The notes beneath the pieces are model-generated. The model did not search any database. It saw nothing but the letters and a program-made list of their open reading frames with translations, and was not told where the DNA came from. This document shows positions 645 through 17,400 of a DNA stretch of 22,040 nucleotides, piece after piece. Within the stretch, counting starts at the first letter, position 1. Every line of letters begins with the position of its first letter. The stretch is from positions 1 to 22,040 of the IMG/VR virus record IMGVR_UViG_3300031741_000024, one strand, 5' to 3'. The stretch is from a virus. A program made the position numbers and the translations under genes.

Positions 645-1103
645 ATGGAAATAAAAGTTTGCGATTGTGAAAATGCAAAACCTTTTATGGGGAATTTAGA
701 ATTTGAGAAAATTGTTTTTAGGTGTCCAGAGTGCGGCGGCGCCAGGTGCGACGCGGGGATAAAAAAAAATGATTTGGAAAAAATGATTGATCAATGGAAA
801 ACGACGGCCTTGTCAATTAATGAATCTGAAAAATTGATCAAACTTTTGATCAAAGATCGGGGAAAAAAATCATTGGGAATTGAAGAAATAAAAGGAAAAC
901 AGGCCGCATTTGAAATGGATCTTTTATATTTTGTTAATTCAAAACTTGCAATATTCAAAGATGAAACCGGCATTTCTATAAATGCTATTTATTTTGATAT
1001 GGTCGGGGTTTTTAATTCTGAACCTGGCGTTAATAGAATGGGGTTTAAACTTAAACAATGTAACACAACTTTTGAGAGGAAAAAAAATGGCCTTTACTTT
1101 TAG
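645..1103 (+). CDS. Hypothetical protein with N-terminal cysteine cluster
   Basis: This 152-residue protein is not recognised. Its first 40 residues hold CDC (6-8), CPEC (28-31) and a further Cys at 36, a spacing that could make a small zinc ribbon. The middle is lysine-rich and helical (about 43-90), and the C-terminal third is mixed and hydrophobic. Its ribosome-binding site, GGAGG at 629-633, lies inside the end of the small terminase gene, so the two are probably translated from one message. Its last 17 bases overlap the start of the gene at 1087. It could be a packaging-associated accessory protein, but nothing in the sequence shows that. Confidence 0.55.
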   Translation: MEIKVCDCENAKPFMGNLEFEKIVFRCPECGGARCDAGIKKNDLEKMIDQWKTTALSINESEKLIKLLIKDRGKKSLGIEEIKGKQAAFEMDLLYFVNSKLAIFKDETGISINAIYFDMVGVFNSEPGVNRMGFKLKQCNTTFERKKNGLYF

Positions 1104-1368
1104 ACCGTCAAAGGAAGCGGCAAAGGCGCTTGAAAAAATCAAGAAGGGTAAACAAATAGCGACGTGTTCAAAGGTCATTGAATATGTATTGACCCGGTTT
1201 TTATCCCTTGAAAAAGAACTATCAGAAACCCGGGCGGAACTGTCCGCCCTGAAAAGTGAATTTGCAAGTAGCAAATGGACGATAATTCGAAAACAAGAAG
1301 CGGACATGGATTTTAAGCGTATGGTTCAGGTTTTTGAGAATGACCGTCAACAGGCTTTGAAAAGATGA
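1087..1368 (+). CDS. Small ribbon-helix-helix-like protein with coiled coil
   Basis: The 93-residue protein starts with MAFTFRPSKEAAKALEKI, a short strand followed by a helix. TCSKVIEYVLTRFL gives the second helix, which is the order seen in ribbon-helix-helix DNA-binding proteins. Residues about 42-62 (SLEKELSETRAELSALKSEF) are a heptad-like coiled coil, followed by a basic tail. The open frame extends upstream to an ATG at 982, but the start at 1087 is preferred: it has GAGAGG 8 bases upstream and avoids a long overlap with the preceding gene. It lies directly before the first 44-bp repeat array, so it is one candidate for the array-binding protein; that link is inference. Confidence 0.6.
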   Translation: MAFTFRPSKEAAKALEKIKKGKQIATCSKVIEYVLTRFLSLEKELSETRAELSALKSEFASSKWTIIRKQEADMDFKRMVQVFENDRQQALKR

Positions 1369-1410: not shown

Positions 1411-1511
1411 AAATGGTATCAAAAAAGTGTCCAGGACGACCGGCCCAGGGCGACAAATGGTATCAAAAACGCGCCCAGGGCGACCAGGTCCCGGGTGCAA
1501 ATGGTATCAAA
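1411..1511 (+). repeat. 44-bp-period array A: three AAATGGTATCA copies
   Basis: AAATGGTATCAAA occurs at 1411, 1455 and 1499. The core GGTATC lies at 1415-1420, 1459-1464 and 1503-1508, exactly 44 bp apart, all in the same direction. The two GC-rich spacers are built from short palindromes with a one-base centre: GTCCAGGAC and GCCCAGGGC in the first, CGCCCAGGGCG and GACCAGGTC plus CCCGGG in the second. The first palindrome of each spacer is centred at the same place, base 23 of the unit. The array fills most of the gap between the genes ending at 1368 and starting at 1524, and its last copy sits just before the Shine-Dalgarno of the latter. A related array is at 10965-11065. Function unknown; protein-binding sites are the simplest reading. 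Confidence 0.85.
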
Positions 1512-2015: not shown

Positions 2016-4001
2016 ATGAATCAGCTTTTTAAAGATAAGGATCAAGGTATCAAATATCATGGCCGCCCGGCGTGGTGTTCGTTTGATTTGTGGGGATCCT
2101 TAAAAAAAGTAATGCCACAAAAAGAATTATCCATTGAATTTGATTTTTCCCGGGCTGAAAAAAAAATATATAGAAAAAGAAAAAAAATAAAGGTGTCTGA
2201 ATGGGCGGAACGGCACAGAATTTTGACCATGTCAGTTTTGCCCGGCGCCTGGCATAACGACGTTACGCCGTATTTGACCGGGATCATGGACGCGGCCGCC
2301 CTGTCCTTTATCCGGGAAGTAACAATTTGCAAAACGCCGCAAACCGGCGGATCCGAAGCCATCCACAATTTTATCGGTTATTGTATTGATCGCGATTGGG
2401 GTCCGGTTTTATATATTTATCCGGATCAAAAAACGGCCGAAGAAAATTCAAAAGATCGGGTATTGCCCATGATCACGTCGGCGCCACGCTTGCGAAAATA
2501 CTTGACCCCAAAAGATAAAGATACGTCAATTCACAGAATTAAATTATCGCATATGACTGTTTTTTTTGGTTGGGCGCGGTCGGTGGCGACCCTTGCAAAC
2601 AAGTCGATACAGTACGCGGTGGCCGATGAAATCGACAAACCCGGATTTGATCCAGGCAAAACGGAAACCGGGGCGCTCGAATTAATTGACAAGCGGTTGA
2701 CCACGTTTCGGGGGAAATCAAAATTTATTAAAATATCCACGCCGACCCTTGAAAGCGGGAACGTCTGGAAAGAGTTAAATGCAATGGACATTATTTTCGA
2801 TTATTTTGTCAGGTGTCCTTTGTGCGACGGTATGCAGTTAATGAAATTTAAGGGGATCAAGTGGGACGGTGCATCAAAAGCAGATCCCCGGGAAGTCAAA
2901 AACAAAAATCTGGCCTGGTATAAATGTAAACATTGCGCGGGTAAATGGGATGAAGGTTTGCGGGATAAAGCAGTTAAAAAAGGCGTATGGATGGCCCGGG
3001 GCAAAAAAATATCCATGGACGTTTATTTAAGAACATATAGGCCCGCAACAATCGGATTTCATATCCCGGCGTGGATATCTTATTTTATAACTTTTGGGGA
3101 AATTGTATCCGCTTTTTTATTGGGTTTGGACGATCCCATAAAATTGCAGGATTTTAAAAATTCTTATGAGGCCCTGCCCTGGTCGGATGAATCTATTTTG
3201 CAGGACGAACAGGGGGTCCTTGATCATTGTATTGATTTGCCGGGTGGCGTGGTCCCAAAGGCCGCCAGGTGGTTGACGGCCGGGATTGACGTTCAAAAAT
3301 ATGGTTTCTGGTTTGTGGTCCGGGCCTGGTTTGATGAAAATAAAAGCCATTTAGTACAATATGGATATTTTACGACCTGGGCCGATGTTGACACGTTGAT
3401 TTTTAAAACGCGTTATCCGGTTGAAAACGGAAATGGTGAAACCATGGGGATATCGCGGGCCGGGATTGACAGCGGCGGCGGGGTGGCGGCCGACGATGAT
3501 TGGACAAAAACAGAGGAAGTGTATTCGTATATTCGGCGGAATGGCGGTTATACAGCCTTTGCAACAAAGGGCGCGTCAAAACCCCAGGCCACGAAATTAA
3601 AAACAACGGTTGTTGATAAAACGCCCGGCGGCCAAAAAAAGGCCAGAAAATTAATGGGTGGCGGCCTGGTTTTATATTGGTTAAATACCCATGTATTAAA
3701 ATCTATTTTTTGGCAACGTATGACGACGGACAAGGTTAAAGGATCGGATCAGGTAACGACATTACACGCGGATACCGGCATGGATTACGCGCAACAAATC
3801 ACGGCCGAAAAAAAAGAAAAAAACCGTAACGGGGTTTGGAAGTGGGTCCAGATCCGGCGGGATAATCATTTGCTCGATTGTGAAGTTATCGCGGCGGCTT
3901 GTTCAGATCCGGAATGGTCCCCGTCATTATCCCATATTGTCGGGTCTATGCGGACCGGCGGCAAGAAAGGCAAAGTCATATCAAAAGGTATTCAGCAATG
4001 A
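2016..4001 (+). CDS. Terminase large subunit, GpA family
   Basis: At 661 residues this has the length and order of the lambda gpA family, the ATPase-nuclease motor that cuts concatemeric DNA and pumps it through the portal. WAERHRILTMSVLPGAWHND (63-82) is the typical entry to the ATPase domain. EVTICKTPQTGGSEA (101-115) is the family's variant Walker A, and VADEIDK (202-208) is the Walker B with adjacent acidic residue. A CPLC (267-270) and CKHC (304-307) pair forms a zinc-binding insert. The nuclease domain starts near TAGIDVQKYGFWF (421-433), includes GIDSGGG (483-489), and ends with DCEVIAAA (621-628), so acidic residues suitable for metal binding are present. The gene is complete. Its stop overlaps the next start (ATGA at 3998-4001). 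Confidence 0.93.
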   Translation: MNQLFKDKDQGIKYHGRPAWCSFDLWGSLKKVMPQKELSIEFDFSRAEKKIYRKRKKIKVSEWAERHRILTMSVLPGAWHNDVTPYLTGIMDAAALSFIREVTICKTPQTGGSEAIHNFIGYCIDRDWGPVLYIYPDQKTAEENSKDRVLPMITSAPRLRKYLTPKDKDTSIHRIKLSHMTVFFGWARSVATLANKSIQYAVADEIDKPGFDPGKTETGALELIDKRLTTFRGKSKFIKISTPTLESGNVWKELNAMDIIFDYFVRCPLCDGMQLMKFKGIKWDGASKADPREVKNKNLAWYKCKHCAGKWDEGLRDKAVKKGVWMARGKKISMDVYLRTYRPATIGFHIPAWISYFITFGEIVSAFLLGLDDPIKLQDFKNSYEALPWSDESILQDEQGVLDHCIDLPGGVVPKAARWLTAGIDVQKYGFWFVVRAWFDENKSHLVQYGYFTTWADVDTLIFKTRYPVENGNGETMGISRAGIDSGGGVAADDDWTKTEEVYSYIRRNGGYTAFATKGASKPQATKLKTTVVDKTPGGQKKARKLMGGGLVLYWLNTHVLKSIFWQRMTTDKVKGSDQVTTLHADTGMDYAQQITAEKKEKNRNGVWKWVQIRRDNHLLDCEVIAAACSDPEWSPSLSHIVGSMRTGGKKGKVISKGIQQ

Positions 4002-10004: not shown

Positions 10005-10958
10005 ATGAGCAAGCTAATTACGGAAAAACAGGTCATTGGATGGTATTTTATGCAACTTGCGGCCTTTGCGGGTATGGGTTGGGTAAACGCAATTTCAAAC
10101 TTTTTCACGTCAAACTCAGCAATTGAAACATATCCATGGTTGAATATGTCCCCGGCCATGCGCGAATGGGTTGGCGGCAGAAATGCCAAAGGGTTTGGCG
10201 AAAATTCTTTACAGATCAGAAATAAATTATATGAAGCAACGATTAAACTGCTTGTTTCGGATCTTAAACGCGATAAGACGGGCCAGATTAAAGCCAGGAT
10301 CGAGGAGTTTGCGACTAAGGGCAATAGCCATTGGGCCAGCCTTTTATCAACTTTGATTCTGTCCGGGGCGTCAACCGCCTGCTATGACGGCCAGTATTAT
10401 TTTGATACGGATCACAGCGAGGGCGATTCCGGGACACAATCCAATGATTTATCAATTGATATTTCAACATTGCCAGCGGAAACGGCCGGGTCCATAACAA
10501 TTCCGGGCGTTGAAGAAATGCAAATTTGTATCATGCAAGCCATAACCGCGATTATGGGATTTAAGGACGACCAGGGCGATCCGATGAACGAGGACGCTTT
10601 AAACTTTTTGGTTATGGTCCCCATGTCCTTATGGCAAAGCGCCGTTACGGCGGCGGCCACGCCGTCACAGGTAGCGGCAAGTCAAACCGCCTTTGAAGGG
10701 GTAAGACAGCAAGGTATTAATATTTCAGTGGTTCCAAACGCCAGGTTGTCGGATTGGACAAGCTCTTTTGCGGTATTCCGGGCAGATGGCAAAATCAAAC
10801 CGTTGATCAGACAGGAAGAAAGCGAAGTTGCGCTTAAGGTCAAAGGGTTTGGTTCTGAATATGAATTTGACAATAACGCCCACCAATACGGGATCGACGC
10901 GTCAAGAAATGTTGGCCTGGGCAGATGGCAAGGCGCTTGCCTTGTAACAATGACATAA
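10005..10958 (+). CDS. Major capsid protein, Mu gpT-like
   Basis: A 317-residue protein with the marks of the Mu-like major head subunit (gpT) family: AIETYPWLNMSPAMREWVGGR (39-59), then the KLYEATIKLLVSDLKRDKTG segment (74-93), and the very typical CYDGQYYFDTDH (126-137). The C-terminal half (about 180-317) includes FLVMVPMSLWQSAV and a strand-rich end. It would form the icosahedral shell with an HK97-type fold. Length agrees with the family. It is transcribed with the lambda-type portal and protease genes, so the head is a hybrid of two phage groups. GAGG 10 bases upstream fixes the start. Confidence 0.9.
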   Translation: MSKLITEKQVIGWYFMQLAAFAGMGWVNAISNFFTSNSAIETYPWLNMSPAMREWVGGRNAKGFGENSLQIRNKLYEATIKLLVSDLKRDKTGQIKARIEEFATKGNSHWASLLSTLILSGASTACYDGQYYFDTDHSEGDSGTQSNDLSIDISTLPAETAGSITIPGVEEMQICIMQAITAIMGFKDDQGDPMNEDALNFLVMVPMSLWQSAVTAAATPSQVAASQTAFEGVRQQGINISVVPNARLSDWTSSFAVFRADGKIKPLIRQEESEVALKVKGFGSEYEFDNNAHQYGIDASRNVGLGRWQGACLVTMT

Positions 10959-10964
10959 AACCCG

Positions 10965-11065
10965 AAATGATACCATTTTTAATCCGGATCCCGGGTCCCC
11001 TGGTCAAGAAATGATACCAGAACAAAGACCGGGGCGCCCTGGGTCCACAACCAAACGGTATCAAA
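10965..11065 (+). repeat. 44-bp-period array B: two reversed and one forward copy
   Basis: AAATGATACCA begins at 10965 and 11009, and AAACGGTATCA at 11053. The six-base cores (GATACC 10969-10974 and 11013-11018; GGTATC 11057-11062) are exactly 44 bp apart, the same period as array A, but here the first two are reverse complements. Spacers are again GC-rich and palindromic (ATCCGGAT, CCCGGG, CCCTGGG). Copies two and three can pair as a 7-bp stem around an inner GACC...GGTC hairpin. The array starts 6 bases after the capsid stop and ends just before the Shine-Dalgarno of the gene at 11090. Confidence 0.85.
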
Positions 11066-11089: not shown

Positions 11090-11422
11090 ATGAAAGAATA
11101 TATCACAACAGCAATTATAAACCTTACCGCCGGTTTGATCGGATTGACAATCAAACAGGCGTCCCGGCGGGTCGGATTTCTGGCCGTGGTTAAAGGTGAA
11201 AAAAATCTTTTTGAAATTATTAAGCCGGTCCAGTTTAAGGCCGGGGAAATCATTTTAATTGATCCGGACAAGATCACGCTGGCAAGCCTTGAATTAACGC
11301 CCGCGGGTTTGGCTTTAGAAGCGGCACAAAAAGAGGACGCTATACAGGCGGAAGTTAAAAAACGCCTGGAACAACAAAAAGCGACCAAAAAACCAATCGC
11401 CAAAAAACCGGCCGGAAAGTGA
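11090..11422 (+). CDS. Hypothetical protein after the capsid gene
   Basis: A 110-residue protein. Residues 1-25 contain a hydrophobic patch (IINLTAGLIGLTI), the centre is strand-rich (FEIIKPVQFKAGEIILIDPD), and the last 35 residues are a charged Lys/Ala/Gln tail ending in KKPIAKKPAGK. Short proteins with Lys/Ala-rich tails sit at this position in Mu-like head modules, so a distant link to that group is possible but not shown. GAGG at 11076-11079 supports the start. It directly follows repeat array B. Confidence 0.6.
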   Translation: MKEYITTAIINLTAGLIGLTIKQASRRVGFLAVVKGEKNLFEIIKPVQFKAGEIILIDPDKITLASLELTPAGLALEAAQKEDAIQAEVKKRLEQQKATKKPIAKKPAGK

Positions 11423-14435: not shown

Positions 14436-17400
14436 ATGTCAGATACAAAACTTGAAATTATCCTAACGGCCAAAAATTTAACGGGTGGCGCGTTTAAAAA
14501 AGTGGGATCCGGATTAAAAAAGGTCACGGATTCGGTTTTATCTTTTAATGGCGCCATGGGTGCGGCGGCCGGGGCCGCTGGCCTGGGTTATTTTGTTAAA
14601 AAGAACCTGGAAGCCGCCGACAGTATCGCAAAGACCGCCGACACAATCGGGATCACTACAAAATCATTGCAAGAATACCGTTTTATGGCGGATCGGTCCG
14701 GGGTCGCGGTTGCACAACTTGACCAGGGGTTAGGCGCTTTTTCAAAAAGACTTGGGGAATTGCGTTTGGGGACCGGCGCTTTAAATACCATTTTATCAAA
14801 AGGTAATGGCGTTTTAAAAGAACAGATGATCGCGGCCGGATCCACGGATAAGGCCCTTGAAATTTTTCTTGATACCCTGGGCAAGATCGAGGACCAATCG
14901 GATAAAACAGCGCTTTCGGCAGCCGCTTTTTCCAGGACCGCCGGTATAAAAATGACCAATTTAGTCAAGGGCGGATCCGCCGCCCTGGACGATATGCGTC
15001 AAGAGTTTTTGGACCTGGGCCTTGTGATAGATGAAAAATGGCTCAGACAAAGCGAAAAAGCGATTGATCAATTTACCAATCTTGAATATGCAGTTAAAGC
15101 CCGGCTTATGTCGGCCGTGGTCCAGACGTCGCCGCAAATCATTAAAATGGTGGGTCATATGACGGATTGGGTGGTCAAAAATGATAAATTTTTGACCCAG
15201 GACGTCCCGGGCCATATTAAGAACATGGGAAAAGAGGTTCAAGAATTTACGGATTCAACCGGCTTTAAATTAATGATGGAATATTGGCAACTGGCCGCCG
15301 GGGCCGCGATTGGTTTCAGGGTTGGCGGCGCGCCCGGTGCAATTATCGGGGCCGGTGCTGGCGCCTGGATTAAAGTTTTTGGCGATCTTAAAGAATTAAC
15401 GGCCGGGCAAATTAACCAGGTCAAAACCCTGCAAACAGAATATGAGTTTTTAAGCCGACAGCTTAAAGATATGGAAGGGACGGTCCCGGATCCGGAAATA
15501 GTCCAGGCTTTAGAAGATCGCCAGGCCGCCATTTTAAAACAGGTTGAAGGTTTAAAGCAATTGGCGCCGGTGGCAACTGAAGCGGCCGCCGCTTTAACTG
15601 CTTTCAATAATGCGTCATATGATGGGGATTTTACCGGGTGGAATGAAGGTCTTAACACGGTCAAGATTAATATTTCGGAATTTGTCAATTTCCAGGGCCT
15701 TGAAATGCAACGGGCCATTGATGCTTTAAAGCAATATGAGACAGCGCAAAGAAATATCGTGTCGCCAGAAAAACAAAATTTACATGATTGGTTTTCTATT
15801 GACCGGGAAAGCGCAAAAATAGATCCCGAAGAATATTATCAAGATTGGGCGGATAAACATAACGCGGGTCTGGAAGAACAAAAACAGGCCCTTGAAAAAT
15901 CGCTGGCTGAACAGGCCGACGACTACGAAGATTTTTCCGACACGGTCCAGGACTACACGGCCGATATTATAGATAATTGGGGTAACGCCTGGGAAACCAT
16001 GGCAGATATTGTCAAGCGGACCGTTTCCGAAATGGCCGCGGATTTGATCGCGCAAAAATTGATCGTCCCCATTGCCATGGACATTGGATCCGCCGCGGGT
16101 TTGTCCTGGAAGGGAACAAAATTTGGCGATATGGCGGGCGGTTCTGGCGGCGGCATTATGGACAAATTATCATCTTTAAAAAATTTTGGATCCTTATTTG
16201 GGGGCAATGTTCCGGCCGGTAGTTTTGCCACGGCGTCCGGGATCCCTGGTTCCATGGCAACGGCGGGCAATACGGCGTATGGCCTGGGTATAGGAAAAGC
16301 CGGAACGATTGGCGGCGGCGGTTGGGGTGCTGGTAGCGCTGGCATAATGTCTAGTGTAGCTATGGCGGGTTTTGGTGCAATAGCTGGCATTATAATCGGC
16401 AAGGTTATTAGTTCAATGGCAGAAAAGCACCCGGCCATGTCATTCATGGGATCCGATAAAGATTATTGGAAAATAAAAGGAAATCCGAACATTGACGAAA
16501 TGCCCTTTGATTATACCCAGGGGGCGGGTGGTATATCGAGCAAAAATTTTGATTATCAGATTTCAACCGTTGATTTTGGTACTGATTCGATAAAAGTACA
16601 GGATACAATGTTCCAATATTTCGATACTGTTTTCGCTCAATTGGACGCGGTCACAACGACCAGTATTAACGACGTATTAAAACAATATAAATTTTATGGA
16701 AAAAATGCGGCAATCGGCGGGGGTGATTTTGAGGGCAGTTTTAAACAATTATCCAAGGACGTTTTTTCCGATTTGGTCGGGACAATTTTAACGGATATAC
16801 TTCCAAGTGCTGGCACAACAGACAAAACATTTAATGTGGTCACAGGGAGCAAGGTTCAAGATTATATTGCTATTCCACACATTACACCCACAGGGGAAAA
16901 CGCGTCCGAATCTACTGGTTATAGTGAAGCGCCCGGTTCGCCCGGTGGGCCTAATGTGTTGCCGCAAATTAATGTTCCGGTTTATAGTGATATTACCCGG
17001 CAAGTTTCAACCATGGCGGATACATTTAACGCGGCTTTTTTTGCGGCAATCTTGCCGTCCGGTGGTAATGAATGGGACGCCTTGACCCTGTTTGCTAAAA
17101 CCGTTCAAACGACCGATGATTTTATAAAAAAATTCAATGATCGAATGACGGATTTTTCTTTATCCGCGGTTGATGCTTTTACACAAATTGCCATTGTGTC
17201 CGGCGCCCTGGGGGAACTTGACCAGGTGGTAGCGGATTTAGAAATGGACCCGGTGGTCGAACCGGTTAAAACCTTGTCAGAAGGGTTTGAAACCTTGACG
17301 GAGTCCTTGAAGGCAAATAACGCCACGGTGGACGATCTTTCCAAGCTGCAAACAAGCCAGGATAAAATTTTTTGGGCAACCATTAAAGATTTGGGATCCG

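Follow-up and report, generated by a model that had tools for sequence, protein, structure and literature searches.

A 44-bp word array downstream of a viral major capsid gene and a candidate array-binding protein encoded near a second array

A ribbon-helix-helix (RHH) protein whose own gene is preceded by a repeat array is the classic layout of plasmid partition adaptors. The pSK1 Par protein is described as a helix-turn-helix (HTH) rather than an RHH protein, and matS is a chromosomal palindrome occurring singly. Stoperators of L5-type mycobacteriophages are single 13-mers, placed in one orientation relative to transcription and read by a monomeric HTH repressor (PMC9283540). Here, we describe array B, a set of 8-bp words repeated at a 44-bp step downstream of the major capsid protein (MCP) gene in a 22,040-bp viral DNA fragment (IMG/VR record IMGVR_UViG_3300031741_000024, positions 1 to 22,040; the whole stretch is hereafter termed the window). 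A second array, array A, lies upstream of the terminase large subunit gene (terL) and adjoins the gene of a small protein, which was named RHH-CC for its predicted ribbon-helix-helix and coiled coil. RHH-CC probably has at least two target arrays, array B among them.

The arrays resemble stoperators in that many short asymmetric words lie in short intergenic gaps of a temperate phage and would be read by a phage-encoded protein (PMC9283540). They differ in being composed of 8-mers grouped in arrays of three to four with a fixed 44-bp period, in having the predicted RHH-CC as a candidate reader, and in lacking a fixed orientation overall; orientation relative to transcription is constant only within some lineages. 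With the centromere and operator binders ParG, omega, CopG and Arc, RHH-CC shares a predicted beta-helix-helix N-terminus and, in many members, an array upstream of the gene. Unlike these proteins, it has a long C-terminal coiled coil and no detectable sequence family membership. Their sites are contiguous short repeats, whereas here the period is 44 bp with palindromic cores between the words; a linked ParA was not seen in most RHH-CC carriers. A DNA-binding head joined to a coiled coil and sites that can be bridged, both predicted for RHH-CC, recall pSK1 Par and MatP-matS, but no sequence relation to either was found. TIGR and CRISPR arrays also combine repeats with constant-length spacers in mobile elements. 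The present arrays differ in their 8-bp repeat, mixed orientation, several short arrays per genome, and spacers with common palindromic cores; this candidate was rejected, as the gene lists show RHH-CC and no cas or tas effector was noticed in them, although no dedicated effector search was made.

Words, register and distribution of the arrays

Array B is a real repeat array. Its successive 8-mers are exactly 44 bp apart, as proposed in the initial annotation of the window, and words 1 and 2 are indeed the reverse complement of the array A motif TGGTATCA. The core positions proposed there (10969, 11013 and 11057) reproduce the 44-bp step, but each points one base inside the word, the words starting at 10968, 11012 and 11056. 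The motif TGGTATCA occurs 8 times in the window versus 0.32 expected. Two 44-bp triples with at most one mismatch (arrays A and B) were found in the window versus 0 in 1000 Markov shuffles, which contained no such triple even when up to 3 mismatches were allowed. No third array is present within the 22,040 bp. Array B (10968-11063) occupies the gap from the MCP stop codon to the ATG at 11090, and the suggested fit between a gene stop and the next Shine-Dalgarno sequence holds. The spacers do contain short GC-rich palindromes, as had been noticed, and 6-bp palindromes are in excess over all arrays (58 versus 22 ± 4.6). Since the word is pseudo-palindromic (TGRTAYCA), an orientation flip alters two bases only.

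Alignment with the nearest relative, contig 3300000174_000011 (L086/L218; MCP 86% identical by blastp), demonstrated that both arrays are kept in the same two gaps and that the 44-bp match of array B is retained. In this contig array A has four words versus three in the window, and the three words of array B all point the same way, in the same 44-bp register. The third word of array B is therefore flipped in the window but not in the relative, indicating an orientation change inside a conserved register. Together with the 44-bp spacing kept across unrelated elements even when the word changes, this strongly supports the proposal that selection acts on distance and leaves orientation free. Two other relatives (L006 and L090) carry a single array each, downstream of terL and again stepping by 44 bp, and in most MCP relatives the capsid-side gap is devoid of any array. 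Sequence comparison therefore points to arrays being gained and lost among relatives with no relaxation of spacing. The suggestion that the arrays flank the terL-to-capsid block proved not to be general; the array of the relatives lies between terL and the portal gene, and Vibrio phages bear 4-5 arrays over ~42 kb.

Viral contigs were searched for pairs or triples of words at 44 bp and bacterial genomes for triples; simple tandem repeats (L139, L191, L192, L231, L266) were set aside. The same design was found in Vibrio-type tailed phages (2-5 arrays per genome), in inoviruses containing Zot and secretin genes, and on a Bacteroidetes contig with conjugative-transfer genes. The pattern read backwards had no match in 17 of 17 records. 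A host chromosomal repeat was ruled out, as good triples occur in only 2 of 228 Vibrio genomes, both prophage-bearing; one further genome of this set gave a match with two mismatches and without the cores. All-against-all blastp revealed no genes common to the window group and the Vibrio tailed phages, neither the window nor the array phages had a useful DNA match in phage and plasmid collections, and nothing relevant on the word or on the protein-plus-array combination was found in the literature. A separate array of four words, TGAAATCA/TGATTTCA, at 44-45 bp with different cores was observed at L262 11457-11597. No RHH-CC gene was detectable in the 38-kb record of L262, and this array possibly represents a more distant subfamily.

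Across elements the word follows the consensus TGNWATCA, with variants TGGTATCA, TGCTATCA, TGCAATCA and TGATATCA. Spacing is 44 bp in 132 of 137 distinct word pairs at 42-46 bp, a proportion biased by the selection of many loci through the 44-bp pattern; loci reached via the protein alone also show 43-44 bp. Two short palindromes are usually found in each 36-bp spacer, close to offsets 10-13 and 20-24; they come from the set CCGG, CCWGG, CTGCAG, CTCGAG, CGATCG and GGCC. Arrays end exactly at word boundaries and fit the gaps between stop and start codons to the base. Often the word TGATNNCA itself provides the TGA with which the upstream gene ends, or it starts 2 bp past that stop, and the distance from the last word to the next start is often 12 bp. 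Most arrays sit just ahead of a gene start. Among 30 co-directional arrays, word orientation relative to transcription was one way in 14, the other in 12, and mixed or mismatched in 4; within the Vibrio tailed-phage lineage (G004, G005, G237) it was the same in every co-directional array examined. Several simpler identities were rejected: the IHF site WATCARNNNNTTR matches only some words, an extended -10 promoter is opposed by the palindromic variant TGATATCA and by the occurrence of both orientations, and a dyad or hairpin model for all spacers fails with stem complementarity near chance.

RHH-CC and its association with the arrays

Of 29 array-bearing records examined, 26 contain RHH-CC, at a distance of no more than ~600 bp from an array. 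The association was recovered from both directions. Contigs found via the DNA scan for TGNWATCA triples nearly all contain an RHH-CC ORF (E-values from 1e-36 to 6e-9). Conversely, the two best profile matches in the 228 Vibrio genomes (E ~1e-28) are the only two with good TGGTATCA arrays, and in weaker Vibrio homologs an array of TGCTATCA or TGCAATCA words, spaced by 43-44 bp and mostly by 44, runs up to the start of the gene itself. In the Bacteroidetes element the best match of the profile was weak (E 0.23 in 6.9 Mb) and fell on the 60-kb contig of the known array; a second array was found directly upstream of this RHH-CC gene. When the window protein was compared by phmmer with all ORFs of array elements, the array-side counterparts ranked top or near top. 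In a 1.45-Mb control comprising MCP and terL relatives, array-less Vibrio phages and a Vibrio chromosome, RHH-CC was found only in one array-bearing relative. Single-sequence protein scans of viral contigs returned almost nothing, because exact peptide patterns were too strict; DNA-pattern scans and profile searches were the approaches that worked.

In both types of inovirus a small ORF homologous to window ORF 1087-1368 starts where the array ends, and each Vibrio phage has a small RHH-CC-homologous ORF near an array. The RHH-CC gene follows zot in the named inovirus carriers. Environmental Vibrio filamentous phages, such as Vibrio cyclitrophicus phage 1F53_PE001 (PQ189386), encode RHH-CC. 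In Vibrio tailed phages (loci L235 and L236), a small Cys-rich ORF (CNTxGCDKC..LKWD) was observed between the array and RHH-CC, followed by an AlpA-like gene.

No Pfam, PHROG or NCBIfam match was obtained for RHH-CC, and on sequence comparison it constitutes an undescribed small virus-encoded protein family that no curated family fits. Members mostly start with M-A-(F/I)-T-x-R, where R6 is invariant and lies in a predicted strand, and the coiled coil follows. The AlphaFold2 model (pLDDT 90.6) contains a free N-terminal segment, a short helix (residues 9-21) and one long helix (27-92). Fold matches were mostly ribbon-helix-helix proteins, e.g., ParD, NikR, MatP, Arc and ParG, and searching the PDB by protein sequence yielded hardly anything but coiled coils. 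According to the model, RHH-CC is predicted to be a DNA-binding protein combining a ribbon-helix-helix with a coiled coil.

Table 1. Coordinates of arrays, words and genes in the window
Feature	Position	Strand	Details
Window			22,040-bp viral fragment; terL, portal, protease, major capsid and tail genes present
RHH-CC gene	1087..1368	+	Candidate array-binding protein, 93 aa; 45 bp upstream of array A; basis: homologs by arrays, model, folds
Array A	1414..1509	+	TGGTATCA x3 at 1414, 1458, 1502; two 36-bp spacers
Terminase large subunit gene	2016..4001	+	PHROG 15, E 1.9e-141; downstream of array A
Major capsid protein gene	10005..10958	+	PHROG 371, E 2.6e-47; stop 10956-10958, 9 bp before array B
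Array B word 1	10968..10975	-	TGGTATCA on - strand (TGATACCA as read); exact match
Array B spacer 1	10976..11011		36 bp; cores CCGG 10984-10987, CCCGGG 10990-10995, CCTGG 10999-11003
Array B word 2	11012..11019	-	TGGTATCA on - strand (TGATACCA as read); exact match
Array B spacer 2	11020..11055		36 bp; cores CCGG 11029-11032, CCTGG 11038-11042
Array B word 3	11056..11063	+	CGGTATCA, one mismatch; array A orientation, opposite to words 1-2
Small ORF after array B	11090..11422	+	Start ATG 11090; from ORF list; no family match

Core palindromes and their avoidance

In the Vibrio-type array phages (349 kb), CCWGG was found 67 times outside arrays versus 255 expected, and 26 times in 2.9 kb of array. 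For CTCGAG, 13 copies lie outside arrays versus 46 expected, and 15 inside. These are the two most avoided of 110 palindromes in these phages. The Vibrio chromosome and array-less Vibrio phages are likewise poor in CCWGG, whereas the window phage avoids neither CCWGG nor CCGG and yet has the same cores. The avoidance itself is therefore a Vibrio trait. The retention of cores in arrays despite this avoidance argues that the cores matter, and their concentration in arrays combined with avoidance elsewhere in Vibrio phages raises a separate question. In individual phages G004 (L210-L212), G005 (L213-L215) and G006 (L216-L217), CCWGG, CTCGAG and CTGCAG are strongly depleted outside arrays, but nearly all arrays contain them; G006 has its CTCGAG and CTGCAG copies exclusively inside arrays. 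Array-bearing Vibrio phages also contain ParB-like, PAPS-reductase-like and glutamine-amidotransferase-like ORFs, recognized by eye (L210 13502-17141), possibly a DNA-modification island.

Proposed mode of action and alternatives

From the observed arrays, their conserved period, the shared gene and its position, and the predicted fold, we infer binding, bridging and regulation by RHH-CC. Dimers of RHH-CC would bind the 8-bp words TGNWATCA, and the 44-bp period, ~4.2 helical turns, would hold adjacent dimers at a constant distance and angle. Bound dimers could then be joined by the coiled-coil tail, both within an array and between arrays kilobases apart. An array beside the RHH-CC gene would allow autoregulation, and through the arrays at other gene boundaries a single protein would reach several transcription units, as a multi-site regulator or silencer. 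Looping and regulation, both suggested in the initial annotation, are compatible with the adjacent RHH-CC gene, while nothing points to packaging or site-specific recombination, which were suggested with them. More tentatively, filamentous single-stranded DNA phages, double-stranded DNA tailed phages and a conjugative element may share a previously undescribed two-part system. It would consist of RHH-CC and dispersed arrays on a strict 44-bp grid, with a word (TGGTATCA, TGATATCA, TGCTATCA, TGCAATCA) varying by element and two palindromes per interval from a small set, and would mark and physically link gene boundaries. A noise-like intergenic repeat is thereby tied to a specific unnamed protein family, and the protein-array pair appears to move among viruses with no other common gene found. 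The resulting model is compact: one small protein would read a DNA grid of fixed spacing and work at many sites on a mobile genome.

Several observations weigh against RHH-CC as a regulator acting through the arrays. Array-bearing fragments G008, G010 and L154 lack RHH-CC, and four related prophage records (G1029-G1032; loci L133, L148, L188, L165) have no convincing copy. Pfam RHH_1 matched a single RHH-CC member below the cut-off (E 0.0035), and the structural matches are all weak (Foldseek E-values of 0.28 and above; VIA Z not above 6.4). A promoter-type operator is hard to reconcile with a site between convergent genes, which is where at least three arrays are found. The named inoviruses possess a separate repressor-like gene (lambda-repressor-like in one annotation), which suggests that RHH-CC is probably not the main repressor and probably an accessory regulator. 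Finally, the binding model leaves the palindromic cores without explanation. As for G1029-G1032, a single residual TGGTATCA pair with a terminator-like unit was observed in them; these pairs are probably remnants after loss of the RHH-CC gene.

RHH-CC could instead bind and organize DNA with the arrays as dispersed centromere sites for episome segregation or compaction, not transcription. An RHH protein with an upstream array resembles the partition adaptor layout, MatP and ParG are among the fold matches, and arrays are dispersed over the genome, some of them between convergent genes. In the Bacteroidetes element (L259), RHH-CC is followed ~1.2 kb downstream by the start of a ParA-like gene; no linked ParA/ParM-type NTPase was seen among the ORFs of inovirus contigs L230 and L233 or in the window fragment. 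Many carriers are integrated prophages, which also speaks against a centromere. Regulation by RHH-CC is favoured over segregation because most arrays precede a gene start and because the co-directional arrays of G004, G005 and G237 keep one word orientation relative to transcription. In view of the arrays between convergent genes and the ParA-like gene, a role in segregation or genome organization is unlikely rather than negligible. Arrays serving as exchange, insertion or packaging sites, whether as paired sites, modular junctions or a mobile repeat element, would fit their ends on word boundaries, the exact filling of stop-to-start gaps, the same gap without an array in most relatives and the copy number varying between relatives (3 versus 4). 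Linked recombinase or small terminase genes were not seen across carriers, a pac or cos site would not be expected to occur as multiple arrays per genome in both orientations, and the constant partner is a predicted DNA-binding protein, making this explanation very improbable.

The restriction-type core palindromes would also suit an array that senses methylation, acts as a decoy or is shielded by protein, and the two most avoided palindromes of Vibrio-type array phages are strongly concentrated in arrays. Such a device is given hardly any weight, given the rarity of CCWGG in the Vibrio chromosome and array-less Vibrio phages as well, the same cores without avoidance in the window phage, and the inability of a few-site decoy to protect a phage. 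Most doubtful of all is a mainly RNA-level role of the arrays, as terminators or mRNA-stability hairpins. Clear terminator hairpins do occur among the units, and a compensatory change (GGGCTT/AAGCCC versus GGGCTA/TAGCCC) is seen in the stem ahead of the Vibrio capsid gene even with decayed words. Stem complementarity is nevertheless not general over 47 spacers, unlike words, period and cores, and arrays occur in both orientations relative to transcription. The capsid-gene terminator hairpin unit was located at 22433-22528 in G004, at 15101-15196 in G005 and at ~72050-72150 in contig C56 of G001.
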